20,823 nt of DNA. Origin: a virus. The stretch lies in the IMG/VR virus record IMGVR_UViG_3300031787_001003, positions 1 to 20,823 of that record. The stretch is one strand, 5' to 3'. This document shows positions 3,666 to 20,823 of this stretch, one piece after another. The number at the start of each line of letters is the position of its first letter. Position 1 is the stretch's first letter. A program made the translations under genes and the position numbers. The notes under the pieces are model-generated. The model saw only the letters and a list, made by a program, of their open reading frames with translations, did no database searches and was not told where the DNA came from.

Positions 3666-4180
3666 TACATGTCATATGCTAGTCCTTGTCCACCTCTTAC
3701 TTTGCTTGATTGTTCTTCTTGAAGATCTTTATATGCACCTTTAAATGATTGTCTTATTGCCTCATAGTTTTTTGCTGCAGCAATTATAGAATTAAAGTTA
3801 CCATCTCTTCCATGTGTAATAGGAGTATTTTCCATATACCTACCTAATCTATCTAACATAGTTGCAATACCTCTATATGCTCTAGATGTAGGTGTTTCAT
3901 ACATTCTTTCACAAAACTTTAATGCTGCAAAGATTGTTTCATCTTCAGTAGAGAACTCTGCCTCAATCTCTTTTAGAATAATAAATTCTTTATCTTGTTC
4001 TGGAACAAAAAAGAAAGGATTCATATCCGGATTTGGGCAACACATGTAGAATAAATACAAGTATATTTTTAAGTGATCATCTGGATATTCATCCATCACA
4101 TCTTTAAGTGCCTTTAATGTGTAGCAATGTTCTGTTGGAACAACTACACCATTTTGAATATCAAACAATTTTGCAAACAT
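3665..4180 (-). CDS. Conserved protein upstream of TerL, candidate small terminase partner
   Basis: A 171-residue soluble protein with no signal or membrane segment. It is predicted mostly helical, has a Cys-containing aromatic stretch (YLYLFYMCCPNPDMNPFFF, residues about 40-58), an acidic middle, and an Arg-rich helical C-terminal half (SRAYRGIATMLDRLGRYMENT). I do not recognise a named domain. Position immediately before TerL with a one-base stop/start overlap is where a terminase small subunit is often found, and the helical, charged composition is compatible with that, but no helix-turn-helix is obvious. The role is therefore an inference from position only. Confidence 0.75.
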   Translation of the reverse strand: MFAKLFDIQNGVVVPTEHCYTLKALKDVMDEYPDDHLKIYLYLFYMCCPNPDMNPFFFVPEQDKEFIILKEIEAEFSTEDETIFAALKFCERMYETPTSRAYRGIATMLDRLGRYMENTPITHGRDGNFNSIIAAAKNYEAIRQSFKGAYKDLQEEQSSKVRGGQGLAYDM

Positions 4181-4182
4181 GG

Positions 4183-5019
4183 TTATTTTCTTTTAATAAA
4201 GTTTGGACTATTTTTCATATGATTTATTACTGCAATTACTTCATCATATAAATATGGTACTGGTATTAAGTTAACATCTTTTACAATAGGTTCTCCATTT
4301 AGATCTAATTTTGCAATAGGATACCCCCATTTATCTTTACCCTCAGTTTCAAATACAATATGGTGAATGTATATTGTTCCTGGTAATAACTTAGGATTAT
4401 GCTTCAATATCATATACATATAGATACTAAGTTGTAATGAGTAATGATTAAAATTACAATCATCCAAATTAGAAATAGGATGGAGCATCTTCTCTGAGAT
4501 TCCCTCCCAGTCCTTGAATGACTCCATCTTAATTTCTTTATTTGTTTTGTAATCAATAATATTTACTCTACCATTAACTACTTCTACGAGATCTGATTGT
4601 CCACAGATGCCTGCAGACTTAAGATAAACCATATGCTCTGGATAAACACCCGGTTCTAGTTTTTGTGATGGCGCATATTTTATACCATCTTTTAAAGGTA
4701 AAGGTGCAAAAATTGGAACTACTGTACCTTCTCTTTCTATTGATGCCAAAGAACATAAGTCAGCTTCTCTTTGGTTATGATACCAAGTACCTAAGTCTAC
4801 AGCTCTCTTAGCTTCATTTGCCCAGATCTCTTCAATGATCTTAGGTTCTATTCCGTGCCATTTAGACTTAGTATTCTTACTAACTTTTTGAGCAGTCTTT
4901 TTTGCATCAAATGGTTTCTTTAAAGATGATACTACAGTAGTTACACTATACCATGCTATTTCAGGTTCAGTAGTTAAACTCTTATAACTATGATCTTTTG
5001 CATTAAAGAAAATACTCAT
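4183..5019 (-). CDS. PD-(D/E)XK superfamily nuclease
   Basis: A 278-residue protein with the RecB/Cas4-like nuclease signature. Visible motifs in order are LGTWYH (residues 76-81), E128 before the core, D143 in GQSDLVEV, the DYK triad element at D156-K158 (IIDYKTNK), and the QLSIYMY helix at 196-202 (Q...Y motif). These are the usual metal-binding and catalytic positions, so nuclease activity on DNA is expected. In phages such proteins serve DNA processing, recombination or packaging. It is coupled to its neighbours: the start overlaps the zinc-binding gene's stop by four bases (ATGA) and two bases separate it from the next gene. Its place among packaging genes favours a role in genome maturation, which is inference. 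Confidence 0.88.
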   Translation of the reverse strand: MSIFFNAKDHSYKSLTTEPEIAWYSVTTVVSSLKKPFDAKKTAQKVSKNTKSKWHGIEPKIIEEIWANEAKRAVDLGTWYHNQREADLCSLASIEREGTVVPIFAPLPLKDGIKYAPSQKLEPGVYPEHMVYLKSAGICGQSDLVEVVNGRVNIIDYKTNKEIKMESFKDWEGISEKMLHPISNLDDCNFNHYSLQLSIYMYMILKHNPKLLPGTIYIHHIVFETEGKDKWGYPIAKLDLNGEPIVKDVNLIPVPYLYDEVIAVINHMKNSPNFIKRK

Positions 5020-15895: not shown

Positions 15896-16165
15896 ATGAA
15901 TAATCTTATCATTCGGGTTATTGCTAACCCAAACTCAAAGAAAACCTGGGTTGTCTATCCCAGTGCAGGCATAAAGCCTTTCGTTATAGACAAGACCAGG
16001 TGCAAAGGTGTCAAGCTTAAGCCCAACAAACATTATGTTGTTGAGCTTAAGCATGCAAAGAGTAAAACTCCACCTTTGCCTGACACCATATTTGTATATT
16101 GCATATATGCATATGGTGAGCTGATGTTAGACAAGTCTACCACAGCTAAGAAGAAAGGGAAGTAA
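15896..16165 (+). CDS. Small basic protein, unknown, first early-type cassette
   Basis: An 89-residue basic protein, predicted beta-rich (NNLIIRVIANPNSKKTWVVYPS, then KGVKLKPNKHYVVELKHAK and DTIFVYCIYAYGEL), with a Lys-rich tail TAKKKGK. No signal or membrane segment and no family recognised. It is alone between a leader box and a terminator. Short single-gene units beside a divergent junction are typical for early host-takeover genes of phages, which is an inference. Confidence 0.75.
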   Translation: MNNLIIRVIANPNSKKTWVVYPSAGIKPFVIDKTRCKGVKLKPNKHYVVELKHAKSKTPPLPDTIFVYCIYAYGELMLDKSTTAKKKGK

Positions 16166-16200
16166 GATTCCCTTTCTAAAGGGATTTTATCCCTTTTTTT
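16154..16200 (+). terminator. Terminator with two overlapping hairpin options
   Basis: AAAGGGA (16154-16160) can pair with TCCCTTT (16169-16175), the first arm lying in the last codons of the gene, and AAAGGGAT (16178-16185) pairs with ATCCCTTT (16189-16196) running into seven T. The second is the terminator proper. Confidence 0.85.
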
Positions 16201-16204
16201 CTTT

Positions 16205-16220
16205 CTAGCCCAGAACATAA
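16205..16220 (+). promoter_or_regulatory. Repeated leader box, copy 2 (CTAGCCCAGAACATAA)
   Basis: Directly after the T-run of the previous terminator and 35 bases before the ATG at 16240. Same box as before the other cassettes. Confidence 0.65.
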
Positions 16221-16239
16221 CATAAATAAATTTATTGTT

Positions 16240-16554
16240 ATGAAAACACTTTTTGACCTGTCAAAAACTATTCCTGTGATAACTGAAGTTCCACAGGCAT
16301 CAATGGCCATATTAGACTGTGGCTCCACCAAAGTCTTAATGCCCCTATTATCAGATGAATACAATGGTATTCAACAGATAAACAGTCTTTGTTGGACAAC
16401 ATTGTCCAAAAAGACTTTTGACCAAATGTATGAACTTATTTCCAAGGAAATAACTTGCATACATATTGATTCTCATATCTATTGCCTTGCAGACAAAAGT
16501 TATGAGAATAGAATGGCCAAGGCCATTAATGATGATTATGCTTTAGCACCATAA
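16240..16554 (+). CDS. Small protein ending in a tmRNA-tag-like DYALAP, unknown
   Basis: A 104-residue mixed alpha/beta protein (KTLFDLSKTIPVITEVPQASMAILDCGSTKVLMPLL, then helices around KKTFDQMYELISKEI). Not recognised. The C-terminus AINDDYALAP closely resembles the ssrA tag ending (E. coli ...DENYALAA), differing in the last residue. The final codons lie in a perfect 10-bp hairpin GATGATTATG/CATAATCATC (16531-16559) that includes the stop codon. Single-gene unit with its own leader box and terminator. Confidence 0.75.
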   Translation: MKTLFDLSKTIPVITEVPQASMAILDCGSTKVLMPLLSDEYNGIQQINSLCWTTLSKKTFDQMYELISKEITCIHIDSHIYCLADKSYENRMAKAINDDYALAP

Positions 16555-16560
16555 TCATCA

Positions 16561-16585
16561 AAAGGGATTTTATCCCTTTCTTTTT
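16561..16585 (+). terminator. Terminator, same hairpin sequence as the previous cassette
   Basis: AAAGGGAT, loop TTT, ATCCCTTT, then CTTTTT. The hairpin is identical to that at 16178-16196, showing that the cassettes share their terminator as well as their leader. Confidence 0.85.
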
Positions 16586-16595
16586 CCCTTTCTTT

Positions 16596-16611
16596 CTAGC
16601 CCTTAACTTAA
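16596..16611 (+). promoter_or_regulatory. Repeated leader box, copy 3 (CTAGCCCTTAACTTAA)
   Basis: One base differs from the AACATAA core. It begins 48 bases before the ATG at 16644, after a pyrimidine-rich stretch following the terminator. Confidence 0.6.
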
Positions 16612-16643
16612 AATGAAATCATTTTAAGTAAATCAATTTTATT

Positions 16644-16835
16644 ATGCTAACAAAATTAATTTTTGCACTATACCTGTTAACAGGCACAGTGACCCCTCAA
16701 GATGAACATGAGGGGAGAGAAACATATACAATCTTCTTAGAAGATGGTACATGTATAGAACATGCCTATGCAGGCGAAGTTCTAGAATGGATTGAGACAG
16801 GCTCATTCCATTATAACGAAGACTTAGAGGATTAA
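16644..16835 (+). CDS. Small acidic protein, possibly exported, unknown
   Basis: A 63-residue protein. The first 18 residues (MLTKLIFALYLLTGTVTP) could be a short signal peptide or membrane anchor; the rest is acidic with a beta hairpin (RETYTIFLEDGTCIEHAYAG) and ends in HYNEDLED. Not recognised. Third single-gene cassette. Confidence 0.65.
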   Translation: MLTKLIFALYLLTGTVTPQDEHEGRETYTIFLEDGTCIEHAYAGEVLEWIETGSFHYNEDLED

Positions 16836-16852
16836 CATCCTCTAACTCTTCT

Positions 16853-16880
16853 GAAGAGTTATTCTAACTCTTCTTTTTTT
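16853..16880 (+). terminator. Intrinsic terminator of the third cassette
   Basis: GAAGAGTT (16853-16860), loop ATTCT, AACTCTTC (16866-16873), then seven T. A competing hairpin AACTCTT/AAGAGTT (16844-16860) uses the same arm. Confidence 0.88.
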
Positions 16881-16890
16881 CCCTTTTATT

Positions 16891-16906
16891 CTAGCCCTTA
16901 ACATAA
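16891..16906 (+). promoter_or_regulatory. Repeated leader box, copy 4 (CTAGCCCTTAACATAA)
   Basis: Begins 45 bases before the ATG at 16936, 10 bases after the T-run of the preceding terminator. Confidence 0.65.
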
Positions 16907-16935
16907 ATTGATAAATCAATTAAATTTTATAAATT

Positions 16936-17451
16936 ATGGCTTTACAAGCAAAATTTCTAAAAGTTGGCAAAGGTGGAACCTTAGCCATCTATGAAGTGCG
17001 TGGCACTTCAACTGAGTTAGCATCTTACGTTGCTAACAACTTTAAAAACAGCGAACCTGTTTTCAAATCTACTCCGGATGGCAAGCTCATCCTGAGTAAT
17101 GGAAATAAAGTTCCACTTTATTTCACTTCTTACCCGTTACCGGGCAAGAATATGTGGCACCCTTTGTATCAAGTACAAATGGGTGACAATGCAGGTTCTT
17201 GGACTTTAGACAAGTCAGAACTGCAATTTGATGCTCTTGTTGCCAAGAGCCTCGGTGCTGACTTAGGTCAGGCAATTGCAGCCGAGTCTGCAAAAAGGTA
17301 TGCTGATAGCACACCTGTGTCATCATCTGCATCAAGCTTGCTTGATGAAGAAGATGATAGTGAAGAGGACTTCACTGCAGATGCTTCTGAAGAAGCAAAT
17401 TTGGAAACTGTTGAAACAACAGCTCCCAAAACAGCTAAGACTAACAAGTAG
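16936..17451 (+). CDS. Protein with globular N-terminal part and acidic tail, possible ssDNA-binding-like
   Basis: A 171-residue protein, the largest of the cassettes. Residues 1-120 look globular and beta-rich (ALQAKFLKVGKGGTLAIYEVRG.. VPLYFTSYPLPGKNMWHPLYQVQMGDNAGSWTLDKSEL), followed by a low-complexity acidic region (LLDEEDDSEEDFTADASEEANLETVE, about 135-160) and a short basic end KTAKTNK. A beta-rich core plus an acidic tail recalls phage ssDNA-binding proteins, but the acidic residues are not at the very tip and no OB-fold signature is clear. The gene ends in TAG. Strong terminator follows. Confidence 0.8.
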   Translation: MALQAKFLKVGKGGTLAIYEVRGTSTELASYVANNFKNSEPVFKSTPDGKLILSNGNKVPLYFTSYPLPGKNMWHPLYQVQMGDNAGSWTLDKSELQFDALVAKSLGADLGQAIAAESAKRYADSTPVSSSASSLLDEEDDSEEDFTADASEEANLETVETTAPKTAKTNK

Positions 17452-17466
17452 CCTTAGCAAAATAAT

Positions 17467-17503
17467 AAGAGTAGCCACTAACGTGGTTACTCTTTTATTT
17501 TTT
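17467..17503 (+). terminator. Strong intrinsic terminator
   Basis: AAGAGTAGCCAC (17467-17478), loop TAAC, GTGGTTACTCTT (17483-17494): 12 bp with one G-U pair, followed by TTATTTTTT. Confidence 0.93.
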
Positions 17504-17530
17504 CAAACCTGAAACATAACCCTCTTTCTT

Positions 17531-17546
17531 CTAGCCCGTAACATAG
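17531..17546 (+). promoter_or_regulatory. Repeated leader box, copy 5 (CTAGCCCGTAACATAG)
   Basis: Last copy of the box. Unlike copies 1-4 it is not followed by a close ATG: the next start codon is 405 bases away, so it seems to open a non-coding transcript or a long structured leader. A partial echo (CCTGAAACATAAC) lies at 17509-17521. Confidence 0.6.
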
Positions 17547-17935
17547 TTTGCTATTGCACTCTTTATAGAGTGCTAATACAAGAAACATACAAGTAATATG
17601 TAGTTATTTTAAACATTGTGTTTTAAATTTTACAGTTAATAGGCTCAAAGTATAGGGAAATATACTTGCTACTTGCATGTATCAGGTTTCAGGTTTCTAA
17701 CTTTTTGATTAAAATCTTTTGTCTCCACCGTGTGTAGCAAGTAGACTTTAGTATTGATAATCAGATAGTTACAAAATGCGGAAATAAGTATGTATATATC
17801 TGTATGTTATGTATATTGTTACTACTTACTACTTTATACCTTCTACTTATCTTGTATTATTGTATTATAATACTTTAGTATTATATAGATTTTATATAGC
17901 TAAACCTAATTGTGTAACCAACTAAACACATATAT
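17547..17935 (+). ncRNA. Structured non-coding zone 1 (leader or ncRNA)
   Basis: No ORF of note. It begins with a perfect hairpin GCACTCT-TTAT-AGAGTGC (17556-17573). A 10-bp long-range stem TACTTGCTAC (17663-17672)/GTAGCAAGTA (17734-17743) closes a 61-nt internal region. ATAATAC-TTTA-GTATTAT lies at 17867-17884. It shares exact 12-mers with the two later zones: TAGTATTGATAA (17749) and ATAATCAGATAG (17757). Either a separate RNA or the 5' leader of the two small genes that follow. Boundaries are not defined by sequence except the box at the 5' side. Confidence 0.5.
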
Positions 17936-18124
17936 ATGAATTCTGTTAATAGAATTACCATTACAGAAGATTATGCTTTACAGCTTAATACTTCTATTGA
18001 AGCTCTTATACTAGAGCAAGAGAAACAAGGCTTCCGGGAAGTTAATAGATACACACATCCTGCGGTAGGATTAGTAGTTGTTCTAACTGATGCACCTGTA
18101 CCTGATTATTCTCTTGCACCATGA
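17936..18124 (+). CDS. Small protein ending in DYSLAP, unknown
   Basis: A 62-residue soluble protein (MNSVNRITITEDYALQLNTSIEALILEQEKQGF...) with a helix-rich first half and a beta segment HPAVGLVVVLTDAPV before the C-terminal VPDYSLAP. That ending parallels the DYALAP of the protein encoded at 16240-16554 and resembles the tmRNA tag. The stop overlaps the next start (ATGA), so the two genes are coupled. Confidence 0.7.
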   Translation: MNSVNRITITEDYALQLNTSIEALILEQEKQGFREVNRYTHPAVGLVVVLTDAPVPDYSLAP

Positions 18125-18366
18125 GTAATAGAGATTCATTCCTTATAGGCTTTATACTTGGAGCTGTTTCTTTCTGCGTACTTATACATATAGTATTACA
18201 TGTTATTGTAAAGAAAGAAACTCCCGGGAAAGCCTCTCAGCACATCAAGACTGAATACTTTCTTGAAGTGTCTGAAGACAGCATTAAAGTTGAATCTTTA
18301 CATGGTAATGTTTATCAAGGTACATATAGTGACCTTGATAGCATTATCTGTAAGGATAATCTTTAA
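18121..18366 (+). CDS. Small single-span membrane protein, unknown
   Basis: An 81-residue protein: residues 7-31 (FLIGFILGAVSFCVLIHIVLHVIV) form one membrane helix, followed by a soluble part (KKETPGKASQHIKTEYFLEVSEDSIKVESLHGNVYQGTYSDLDSIICKDNL) with beta character. N-terminus is short, so the soluble part may face the cytoplasm or periplasm. Coupled to the preceding gene by a four-base overlap. No family recognised. Confidence 0.7.
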   Translation: MSNRDSFLIGFILGAVSFCVLIHIVLHVIVKKETPGKASQHIKTEYFLEVSEDSIKVESLHGNVYQGTYSDLDSIICKDNL

Positions 18367-18929
18367 TTATTAGTACATCAACTGTAAATAACCGAGGGGG
18401 AGTTTTTAACCTTTGCACTCTATGCGGTTTACATACAAGTAGCAATACTTGAGGGGGTTGTTGATGTCAAGCAAAGTTCATTACTGTTAGTAAACAGTGA
18501 CAAACCTGTGGGGCTACTATTGGGTTCTATATTTCTCCTGCAAAGAGAGTATAGTACTGACATATCATTTGCAGTGATATGAATCCAAAGTTAGTGCAGA
18601 CTTAAAAATCAGGTATTTTACACATAGTATTGATAAAGCTATGTGAGTTTAATTTAAACTATCATTATCATGAGAACTTATTAGTCTCATGTTATATGAT
18701 TATCTATTCTCCTTCACAAGATTCCACTTGGGAGAATACAGCTGACTGAAGTGGAATTCAGTTTACTTACAAGAATAAGGATTCAGCGATCCTTCTCTAT
18801 GGCCTAGGAAACCATATGTGTCTTGTACAGTTGTTTAAATATTGAGCACAATCAATATTATTATTATTACTAACAATCAAGTCCTGTGTACCTAGCACAG
18901 GCAAGTCCTCAAACTAAAAAAATTAAGTT
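18367..18929 (+). ncRNA. Structured non-coding zone 2: dense array of stem-loops
   Basis: About 560 bases without a gene. Perfect stems follow one another: ACATCAAC/GTTGATGT (18375/18460) closing a three-way junction with AACCG/CGGTT and CAAGTA-GCAA-TACTTG (18436-18451, GNRA loop); ACTGTT/AACAGT (18483-18498); CTATA/TATAG (18527-18554); CATATCA/TGATATG (18561-18581); CACATAG/CTATGTG (18621-18645); CATGAGA/TCTCATG (18669-18691); ATTCTCC/GGAGAAT (18706-18737); ACTGAA/TTCAGT (18745-18762); AAGGAT/ATCCTT (18777-18794); AATATTGA/TCAATATT (18838-18859); CCTGTG/CACAGG (18883-18901). No T-run follows the last stem, so transcription may continue into the next small gene. A large structured RNA, comparable in size to known large phage RNAs such as GOLLD or ROOL, is a reasonable reading; identity is unknown. 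Confidence 0.55.
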
Positions 18930-19064
18930 ATGATTGTTAAAACTATGATTGAATTGTTCCAAGGTAATTTAACCAAGGTACAATATGTTAAGTATTCTAA
19001 TGGTAAAACTATTAAAAGAATACTTGGTAAAGATAATGTTCCTGAATTCATCATTAATCTGTAA
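18930..19064 (+). CDS. Small basic protein, 44 aa, unknown
   Basis: The ORF MIVKTMIELFQGNLTKVQYV... ends in PEFIINL, 44 residues. The leader AAAAAAATTAAGTT just before the ATG resembles the AT-rich leaders of the other plus-strand genes, and the stop is only four bases before the next start. It reads as a beta hairpin plus helix. No family recognised; short length limits certainty. Confidence 0.5.
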   Translation: MIVKTMIELFQGNLTKVQYVKYSNGKTIKRILGKDNVPEFIINL

Positions 19065-19068
19065 GACT

Positions 19069-19221
19069 ATGAAGAATTATATGCCATATATCTTTGTTGT
19101 TCTTTTGTTAGGAACATTTTCCGGGTTACTTATGTCTATGGGAAGCAACATACTTGCTTCTGTAGGTATGATGTCATTATTCTGGGCAGCTATGCTTGCT
19201 CCCGTATTGGTTAGCAAGTAA
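19069..19221 (+). CDS. Small membrane protein, 50 aa, two hydrophobic segments
   Basis: I take the ATG at 19069 (MKNYMPYIFVVLLLGTFSGL...) rather than an upstream ATG at 18985, because the upstream extension would run through the preceding small gene in another frame. Residues 5-22 and 27-48 are hydrophobic, Gly/Ser/Met-rich, with a basic N-terminus and C-terminal SK. It could be a small phage membrane effector; no family recognised. Confidence 0.55.
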   Translation: MKNYMPYIFVVLLLGTFSGLLMSMGSNILASVGMMSLFWAAMLAPVLVSK

Positions 19222-19230
19222 CCATACTAT

Positions 19231-19255
19231 CCTGAGTAGGATATAAAACTGCTCA
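19231..19255 (+). repeat. CCTGAG...GCTCA element, copy A, at the 5' edge of zone 3 RNA
   Basis: CCTGAGTAGG...AAAACTGCTCA. TGAG and GCTCA are separated exactly as in copies B and C (18 bases start to start), but no T-run follows, so this copy is not a simple terminator. It ends in the first arm of the 16-bp stem of the zone 3 RNA. Confidence 0.5.
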
Positions 19256-19599
19256 CTGCCTATTGTATTATTAAAGACATGAAAGAGTCAACTGTAAAAA
19301 TCAGTTATAATACAATAAGAAATGGTGAAGCAAAACAGTTAAACAGAAACCATTAATAGCAGTTATTTACTCTCATCCAAGCAGGATAACATACTACCAT
19401 TGAGCTTATGATGCTCCGTGATGGATGTATGTCAAGGGTTGCAACCTTGTGAGAGTACCAATAATCAGATAGAGAAGAAAGTTCTCACTCAGCAGTATAA
19501 CTGACTAGTATACACTTATGTCTAGTCAACATAAGAAAAACTGAGAGGTCAGCAGGTGAAAGTCCTGCTTCTGATTAAGATACAATAGAAAGGCAGTGA
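19253..19599 (+). ncRNA. Large structured RNA closed by a 16-bp long-range stem
   Basis: TCACTGCC-TATTGTAT (19253-19268) pairs with ATACAATA-(GAAA)-GGCAGTGA (19580-19599), enclosing about 310 bases. Inside are: AATGGT/ACCATT (19321/19349); a three-way domain closed by TACTCTCA/TGAGAGTA (19368/19450) with nested CATAC/GTATG, CCAT/ATGG, GAGC/GCTC (19390-19431) and CAAGG/CCTTG (19433-19449); and a domain closed by TAATCAGA/TCTGATTA (19462/19570) with GAGAA/TTCTC, CTCAG/CTGAG, TGACTAG/CTAGTCA and AGCAGG/CCTGCT (19551-19569), the last abutting the closing strand. A local alternative, TATTGTATTAT/ATAATACAATA (19261/19307), competes with part of the closing stem. No protein-coding frame. Function unknown. 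Confidence 0.7.
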
Positions 19600-19612
19600 T
19601 ATTCTGCGTATA

Positions 19613-19644
19613 CCTGAGCATGTAGACAAAAGGCTCATTTTTTT
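19613..19644 (+). repeat. CCTGAG...GCTCA element, copy B, with T-run
   Basis: TGAGC (19615) and GCTCA (19633) can pair and are followed by seven T, so it could terminate the zone 3 RNA. It lies 34 bases before the ATG at 19678. Same internal spacing as copies A and C. Confidence 0.55.
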
Positions 19645-19677
19645 AAACTTAATTAATCACTTATAAATAAACTTAAA

Positions 19678-20478
19678 ATGAAAATTCATTTAAACTCAAG
19701 ACAAGGTCTCTATGAAGTAGAGACATATGGTAGAGATACAATTACATTATCTACCAAACATAATGTGTTTCAAGTACCAGTATCTGATTTTAAATCATTT
19801 GCCGGTGGTAATTGGAACTTTAATGTACCCAAAGAAAAAATGGATACATTTTTATCAGTTGTTCAACCTGATAAATATAAAATACAAGTTGAACAAGAGA
19901 ATCAAATACTAACTCTAGCTGTTAGATTAGGTATGATTCAAGATGCAGTTAAAGCACAACAATCAGTTGTTGTAGAAGAATCAGATGATTATCAAGATAT
20001 ACCATTTGAAACTGATGAACCTACCAAAGATGAATATGAAAAATGGTGGAGAGATAAATGTAATGAGCTTGATACTACAAAAAATAAAATGAGAAATATT
20101 GCATCTGAAGTATATTCTCAGAATCTTGACTTCAGTAATTTTCAGAATCACAAGGGTATTAAATTCATTATACAAACAGATGCATATGAAACAGAATTTA
20201 GATTCCGTTGGGACCCATATGGATTTGTATCTAATGGTCACAGTGATATCAGTAGCATCTTTAGAGCAGATGATTGGTATACTGTCAATGGTGGTTGGAT
20301 TAAAATCATTGGTGATTATGTGATTTTATATTCTAAATCAGGTGATTATGGTGTGTATGATGATGCAATAGCTACTGCATGTGCAAAGAAAGTATTTCCT
20401 ACTAAAGAAATACATTCATTTGCAGGTAGATACTGGGATGATGAACTTGATTCTCTTTTTATGGAACTCCCATTTTAA
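19678..20478 (+). CDS. Unknown phage protein, 266 aa
   Basis: A 266-residue soluble protein. The first 60 residues are beta-rich (MKIHLNSRQGLYEVETYGRDTITLSTKHNVFQVPVSDFKSF), with a helical middle containing an acidic stretch (VVVEESDDYQDIPFETDEPTKDEYEKWWRDKCNELDTTKNKMRNIASEVYSQ, about 96-148) and an aromatic-rich beta C-terminal half (IKFIIQTDAYETEFRFRWDPYGFVSNGH...WYTVNGGWIKIIGDYVILYSKSGDYGVYDDAIATACAKKVF). No known domain recognised. It is the largest plus-strand gene and sits in its own unit between two CCTGAG...GCTCA elements. Confidence 0.85.
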   Translation: MKIHLNSRQGLYEVETYGRDTITLSTKHNVFQVPVSDFKSFAGGNWNFNVPKEKMDTFLSVVQPDKYKIQVEQENQILTLAVRLGMIQDAVKAQQSVVVEESDDYQDIPFETDEPTKDEYEKWWRDKCNELDTTKNKMRNIASEVYSQNLDFSNFQNHKGIKFIIQTDAYETEFRFRWDPYGFVSNGHSDISSIFRADDWYTVNGGWIKIIGDYVILYSKSGDYGVYDDAIATACAKKVFPTKEIHSFAGRYWDDELDSLFMELPF

Positions 20479-20486
20479 CTCTATGT

Positions 20487-20517
20487 CCTGAGTATGACAA
20501 TAAAGTGCTCACTTTTT
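20487..20517 (+). repeat. CCTGAG...GCTCA element, copy C, with T-run
   Basis: TGAGT (20489) and GCTCA (20507) can form a 5-bp stem with a G-U pair, followed by CTTTTT. Eight bases after the preceding stop and 47 before the next ATG, it could be a weak terminator, a promoter, or both. Confidence 0.55.
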
Positions 20518-20563
20518 CAACTTAAAAATCAATTTATTTATTAACTCTCAAAAAACAAAACAA

Positions 20564-20823
20564 ATGAGAAATTTATCTACTAAGGGTTTAAGCATGTCCC
20601 AAGCACAATCAATATCTAACTTGTGTAATCAAAATGCTGTTGAGATTCAACGTGAGTTGGATTCTTACAACAACTGCAGTAAAACTATTACTGTTGATGG
20701 TGAAAGCTACTTATTACAAGAAGGAATATCTATTCCTGATAATGTAATTGAGAAGCTTAAAATCAAGGGTGATTTACATGCTTGTCAAGCTTTCCTTATG
20801 GAAGCTATCAAGGGTAAAGAAGC
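20564..20823 (+). CDS. Unknown phage protein, C-terminus beyond the window
   Basis: Open from the ATG at 20564 to the right edge (86 codons). It starts MRNLSTKGLSMSQAQSISNL..., a Ser/Asn/Gln-rich helical segment (residues 10-40), followed by SKTITVDGESYLLQEGISIPDNVIEKLKIKGDLHACQAFLMEAIKGKE. The phrase LSMSQAQSISNLCNQ gives the impression of a conserved phage N-terminus but I cannot name it. Leader AT-rich, as for the other plus-strand genes. Confidence 0.75.
   Translation, partial: MRNLSTKGLSMSQAQSISNLCNQNAVEIQRELDSYNNCSKTITVDGESYLLQEGISIPDNVIEKLKIKGDLHACQAFLMEAIKGKE

Follow-up and report, generated by a model that had tools for sequence, protein, structure and literature searches.

In the 20,823-nucleotide viral DNA analyzed here (IMG/VR record IMGVR_UViG_3300031787_001003; hereafter, the window), the plus strand carries no gene from the stop codon at 18366 to the ATG at 18930, and the question raised by this locus is what fills the gap. 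The initial annotation described a gene-free zone of about 560 bases with at least eleven tandem stem-loops, and took this density of stems as the sign of a structured RNA with a job. The ORF list confirmed the absence of a gene; the sole listed ORF of at least 40 aa wholly inside 18367-18929 is a 44-aa minus-strand frame, which is not kept in relatives. A mechanical count of non-overlapping perfect hairpins (stem of at least 6 bp, loop of 3-12) gave 10 in the zone versus 1.73 ± 1.16 in dinucleotide shuffles, with 0 of 200 shuffles as high. Although the unusual density was thus borne out, the stems do not make up a string of eleven unconnected hairpins; they form a separate three-way-junction module and a single RNA of about 435 nt that starts with a ribozyme, as described below. 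Folding of the whole 563 nt gave z = -3.2, well away from zero. However, a sliding folding z-score alone would not single out the zone, since z falls as low as -8 in coding stretches at 15.9-17.4 kb, and we dropped folding energy as a lone argument. The case for the zone is carried by the density of perfect stems together with homology. The coding DNA at 15900-17450 folds unusually strongly on both strands, with z down to -8.

A cmscan search with Rfam 15 identified the hatchet ribozyme (RF02678) as the only Rfam family in the whole window. The match is full-length (model positions 1-133) and scored 82.1 bits against a gathering cut-off of 51. The initial annotation had suggested an Infernal search against GOLLD, ROOL, and other large phage RNAs; the search was apt, but the single family it revealed was the hatchet, and the GOLLD and ROOL covariance models had no match in the window, either at gathering score or with the limit relaxed to E = 5. 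When GOLLD, ROOL, introns, and other Rfam families were examined at a lax threshold, nothing convincing was found beyond the hatchet, and a SNORD57 match in the window fell inside a coding gene. No tRNA or tmRNA was found in the window, and blastn of 17400-20823 against named phages gave no match. In the cmscan alignment, the conserved hatchet nucleotides between P1 and P2 and in the P2/P3 bulge are kept (ACAAACCUGUGGGGC and GUGCAGAC..AAAAUCAGG), and a C is present at position -1 (18479), as in the published hatchet construct. Because C at -1 and a cut at the base of P1 were reported for hatchets (Li et al., 2015, PMC4604424), the cut should lie between C18479 and A18480 according to the alignment. 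Hatchet RNAs cleave at the base of P1 in vitro and need no tail to do so (PMC4604424), and self-cleavage of 18477-18614 is strongly expected from its family membership. The zone consists of three parts, namely the three-way-junction module (18375-18476), the hatchet (18477-18614), and a structured tail that continues the hatchet (18615-18911); their coordinates are collected in Table 1.

Table 1. Features of the gene-free zone and its flanking genes (window coordinates)
Feature	Position	Strand	Remarks
Upstream gene, 81-aa small membrane-type protein	18121..18366	+	From the ORF list; family also upstream of the hatchet in several relatives
Module M1, three-way junction and conserved CAAGCAAAG reaching to the hatchet	18375..18476	+	9 distinct relatives; 27 pairs, 3 compensated
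M1 outer helix	18375-18382/18460-18467	+	
Hatchet ribozyme RF02678	18477..18614	+	cmscan 82.1 bits, E 5.9e-16; predicted cut 18479/18480
KL0, two P4-region hairpins	18527-18554 and 18561-18581	+	Loops CTGCAAA/TTTGCAG; complementary with other sequences in L180, L182, L185, L011
Hatchet-linked tail, ending at conserved AAGTCCTCA	18615..18911	+	Block border in most relatives; never without hatchet
KL1, HP1 loop TTCCAC/HP2 loop GTGGAA	18705-18762	+	Other sequences in L011, L157, L032
HP1 hairpin	18705-18738	+	Compensated stem
HP1-HP2 linker	18739-18744	+	Can pair with HP3 loop (PK2)
HP2 hairpin	18745-18762	+	Compensated stem
Tail three-way junction, span	18768..18827	+	Outer helix 18768-18774/18821-18827
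HP3	18777-18794	+	Compensated
HP4	18798-18816	+	Compensated
3'-terminal hairpin, loop CCTAG	18883..18901	+	Complementary to HP4 loop CTAGG (KL3)
KL3, HP4 loop CTAGG/3'-terminal hairpin loop CCTAG			Other sequence pairs in L006, L031, L180, L182
Downstream gene, 44 aa	18930..19064	+	Start 19 nt past tail

By neighborhood and pattern searches of IMG/VR, we obtained about 40 hatchet-bearing phage contigs, with one hatchet per phage contig in the records scanned. In most relatives, the block shared in blastn extends from the very start of the hatchet (18477/18478) to about 18911 or somewhat beyond, and the conserved block runs from the hatchet to AAGTCCTCA in about 30 related phage contigs. The unit lies in sense orientation with the flanking genes, none of the relatives has a conserved ORF within it, and the next ORF, which belongs to one of several unrelated small families, follows 19-46 nt after the unit in about 20 window-type contigs. 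One relative, L005, is 92-96% identical nearby and lacks 18370-18916, with a different filler instead. This empty site and the sharp borders at the cut site would also suit a retrozyme-like mobile RNA-based element that inserts at the cut site. Such transposition is hardly credible and was set aside, as the unit is single-copy in a semi-conserved neighborhood, direct repeats and a reverse transcriptase were not seen, and ordinary phage recombination explains the borders.

The module upstream of the hatchet, M1, behaves differently from the shared block. The three-way junction at 18375-18467 proposed in the initial annotation is genuine: its 27 pairs were formed in 99% of cells among 9 distinct relatives and 3 pairs were changed on both sides. 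The GNRA cap ascribed to one arm is present in the window as GCAA on the third arm, but it is not a conserved feature because several relatives have non-GNRA loops there. M1 is an element separate from the hatchet. It lies ahead of the hatchet in the window, L017, L021, L022, L031, and L035, and ahead of other sequences in L012, L024, L034, L152, L153, and L154. Other phages have other structured elements directly 5' of the cut, which by eye are H-type pseudoknot-like in L006, L012, L026, and L040 and hairpin modules in L025/L037-L039/L046, L019/L034, L023/L027/L030, and L028; in L018 and L160, only a short hairpin and no module lies between the upstream gene and the hatchet. About 90% of published hatchets have a P0 hairpin 5' of the cut (PMC4604424). 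The window RNA resembles them in its full model match, its conserved core, and the structured element just 5' of the cut. It differs in that the P0 position is taken by the M1 junction, which ends 12 nt before the predicted cut, and the comparison shows a P0 position filled by exchangeable, larger modules.

Further recurrent non-coding elements lie in the window and its relatives. A hairpin module, M3 (19365-19456, core TTGCAACCTTGTGAGAGTAC), belongs to no Rfam family; at least 120 IMG/VR stretches contain its 20-base core, dozens of different sequences follow it, and its inner parts are exchangeable. The 148 non-coding bases at 19433-19580 are 99.3% identical to 5635-5782 of L003/L004/L009 with unalignable flanks, and thus look like a recently exchanged module. 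A small pseudoknot-like element (a stem, loop TGAGYA, and a later GCTCA) occurs three times (19228-19256, 19610-19640, and 20483-20512), with a T run after two of the three copies, and other phages carry it immediately 5' of the hatchet. In L012, an ORF resembling a GIY-YIG homing endonuclease (by eye) lies at about 3880-4550 inside another recurring non-coding module. Finally, CTAGCCCNNAAC is present five times on the plus strand (15857, 16205, 16596, 16891, and 17531; 0.01 expected) between small ORFs, several times just past a terminator-like hairpin, and is probably a phage promoter.

Rfam has no description of the conserved, knotted tail of about 300 bases. In an alignment of 22 tails (window 18700-18835), 14 pairs were changed on both sides (48 such cells), the covariation score was 0.166 versus 0.089 ± 0.006 in shuffles (0 of 500 as high), and 88% of cells were paired compared with 34-47% in slid controls. 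The outer helix of the tail junction aligned poorly, with 40% of cells paired in the 22-tail alignment, but it forms with different sequences in most relatives when these are folded singly. A mutual-information test run globally over the unit was dominated by two swapped hatchet P4 variants and was left unused; helix-wise counts on sub-alignments replaced it. We looked by eye for a sequence that could pair with the conserved GTCCTCA end and found none. Together with the hatchet match, the hairpin excess, and the lack of a conserved frame in relatives, the compensated pairs refute both gene decay and a chance succession of AT-rich stems as the origin of the zone. Nothing speaks for either beyond the missing ORF, and we regard the probability of such an origin as negligible. 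The refuting outcomes named in the initial annotation did not occur: z is -3.2, conservation is strong, and no decayed gene was seen in relatives.

The tail is tightly linked to the ribozyme. A covariance model of the tail matched 31 loci in the 1.57 Mb scanned, all 31 of them hatchet-bearing, and no tail turned up apart from a hatchet. Because about 100 of the searched loci had been fetched through the unrelated M3, this linkage is not merely a matter of locus choice. The linkage bears on the possibility that only the hatchet is functional, with the tail an independent element that stands behind it by chance, one of many inter-gene modules. These phages do line up exchangeable modules, and the hatchet cleaves in vitro without any tail (PMC4604424); nevertheless, the constant association of the two in the 1.57 Mb, together with the same layout after very diverged hatchets, makes an independent tail improbable.

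Four loop contacts, KL0, KL1, PK2, and KL3, show complementarity in the window that recurs in diverged hatchet RNAs although the sequences differ. For PK2, the pair reads GCTG/CAGC in the window, CTCC/GGAG in L011, TTGC/GCAA in L182, and AACAC/GTGTT in L157; KL0 occurs as CTGCAAA/TTTGCAG, TTATCAG/CTGATAA, and TTACAG/CTGTAA. Cognate partners were better than swapped ones by permutation for KL1 (p = 0.017), PK2 (0.008), KL3 (0.003), and KL0 (0.042), values that are optimistic because the loops were chosen by eye with 4-6 types each. L032 gives weak support to PK2 and KL3. KL0 is not needed for in vitro cleavage, because hatchet activity was retained after 44 nt of the P4 loop were replaced (Li et al., PMC4604424). 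These contacts appear to tie the RNA of about 435 nt together. The tail that follows the hatchet, with helices that covary and with loop contacts, is a further difference from the published hatchets (PMC4604424).

We also compared the locus with named phages. The large terminase of the window is about 25% identical over 85% to that of cr130_1 and others, and Flavobacterium and Cellulophaga phages match too; judging from this similarity, the phage is probably related, at a distance, to crAss-like phages. Among the hatchet contigs, L181 matches a stretch of the complete cr115_1 genome (NC_055898, Crassvirales) letter for letter, and cr53_1, cr125_1, cr114_1, and cr4_1 carry hatchets as well, all five of them unannotated in the records. 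The diverged units L157 and L182 had no direct DNA matches in named phages. No hatchet was known from a completely sequenced genome in 2015 (PMC4604424), in contrast to the identified phages described here. In Crassvirales, a conserved non-coding block of about 425 nt starts at the hatchet, and by eye its tail looks unlike that of the window. These hatchets adjoin RAGATH-7 or RAGATH-14 RNAs and/or tRNA-Leu. RAGATH-7, -9, and -14 are structured RNAs beside hatchets in the gut Crassvirales records, L033, and L155, but none is present in the window or the scanned window-type relatives and the tail matches none of them. Tandem hatchets with starts 210-263 nt apart were observed in L187 (cr53_1; 990/1200), L190 (cr4_1; 947/1210), and L162 (1238/1501), where double cleavage would free a short RNA of defined length.

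To our knowledge, hatchet ribozymes have no established biological role. We cautiously favor, as somewhat probable, that the hatchet cut uncouples two cistrons, leaving the upstream mRNA with a module-shielded 3' end and the downstream RNA with a folded leader. The zone would be transcribed on the plus strand with its neighbors, and the hatchet would then fold and cut the transcript at the predicted site, freeing the mRNA of the upstream gene from the downstream RNA. The upstream fragment would end just past a stable module, M1 here and other modules elsewhere, so that in the window the cleaved upstream RNA would terminate with M1. The position of structured modules directly before the cut suggests 3'-end protection of the upstream mRNA, for which they would be well placed. 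The downstream fragment would begin with the ribozyme, followed by the tail of about 300 nt, which would be folded by several loop contacts and stops 19 nt short of the next start codon. Because the tail reaches almost to a start codon, it may serve the next cistron as a folded 5' leader, and from this arrangement we infer that cleavage in cells may separate two cistrons of one operon and affect the downstream gene by giving its RNA a compact folded leader. The occurrence of the unit in sense orientation before several unrelated gene families, with its end just before the start codon, is consistent with a leader; a gene-specific leader function is unlikely because the next genes are unrelated small families. 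The short hairpin that stands in for a module ahead of the hatchet in L018 and L160 also speaks against the proposed arrangement.

That same lack of relationship among the downstream genes fits the main rival to the leader, a free non-coding RNA of about 430 nt whose 5' end is made by the hatchet and whose 3' end is made by a nuclease near AAGTCCTCA, with the neighboring genes incidental. ROOL and GOLLD are large phage RNAs whose intricate folds include kissing loops, and tRNAs often lie close to them (PMC12286853). The window RNA shares a large, intricate fold with loop-loop contacts, and tRNA neighbors are found beside the gut Crassvirales unit, which adjoins tRNA-Leu, a setting that recalls the tRNA islands close to which ROOL and GOLLD are often located. 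The window RNA has no Rfam match to either, is shorter, and begins with a self-cleaving ribozyme. The single copy per phage contig scanned, the compact fold, and the conserved 3' end also agree with a free RNA, but no terminator or 3' processing signal was identified and in about 20 relatives a start codon follows closely on the end of the unit, and we consider a free RNA possible though rather doubtful. A bolder and equally tentative proposal is that the hatchet forms no more than the 5' domain of large, intricately folded phage RNAs, about 430 nt long, that make up a widespread class; several loop-loop contacts would hold these RNAs together, self-cleavage would release them, and they may multimerize like ROOL and GOLLD, while exchangeable modules would cap the 3' end left by the cut.

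Because a hatchet predicted to cut itself and a conserved, knotted tail of 300 bases occupy the gap, it is, as the initial annotation had supposed, a functional RNA and not empty DNA, and the cause of the stem-rich gap is more specific than was guessed there. On every feature testable here, the zone is a member of the hatchet family with a conserved extension beyond the Rfam description, neither an artefact nor a known large phage RNA. While the hatchet family itself was already known, the hatchet as the 5' domain of a larger phage RNA is new; in the phage group of the window, conservation covers an RNA three times the length of the ribozyme. Hatchets are now placed between genes in defined phages, including complete human-gut Crassvirales genomes, and the tail, the loop contacts, and the swapped upstream modules are concrete test pieces for the job of a small self-cleaving ribozyme in a phage.
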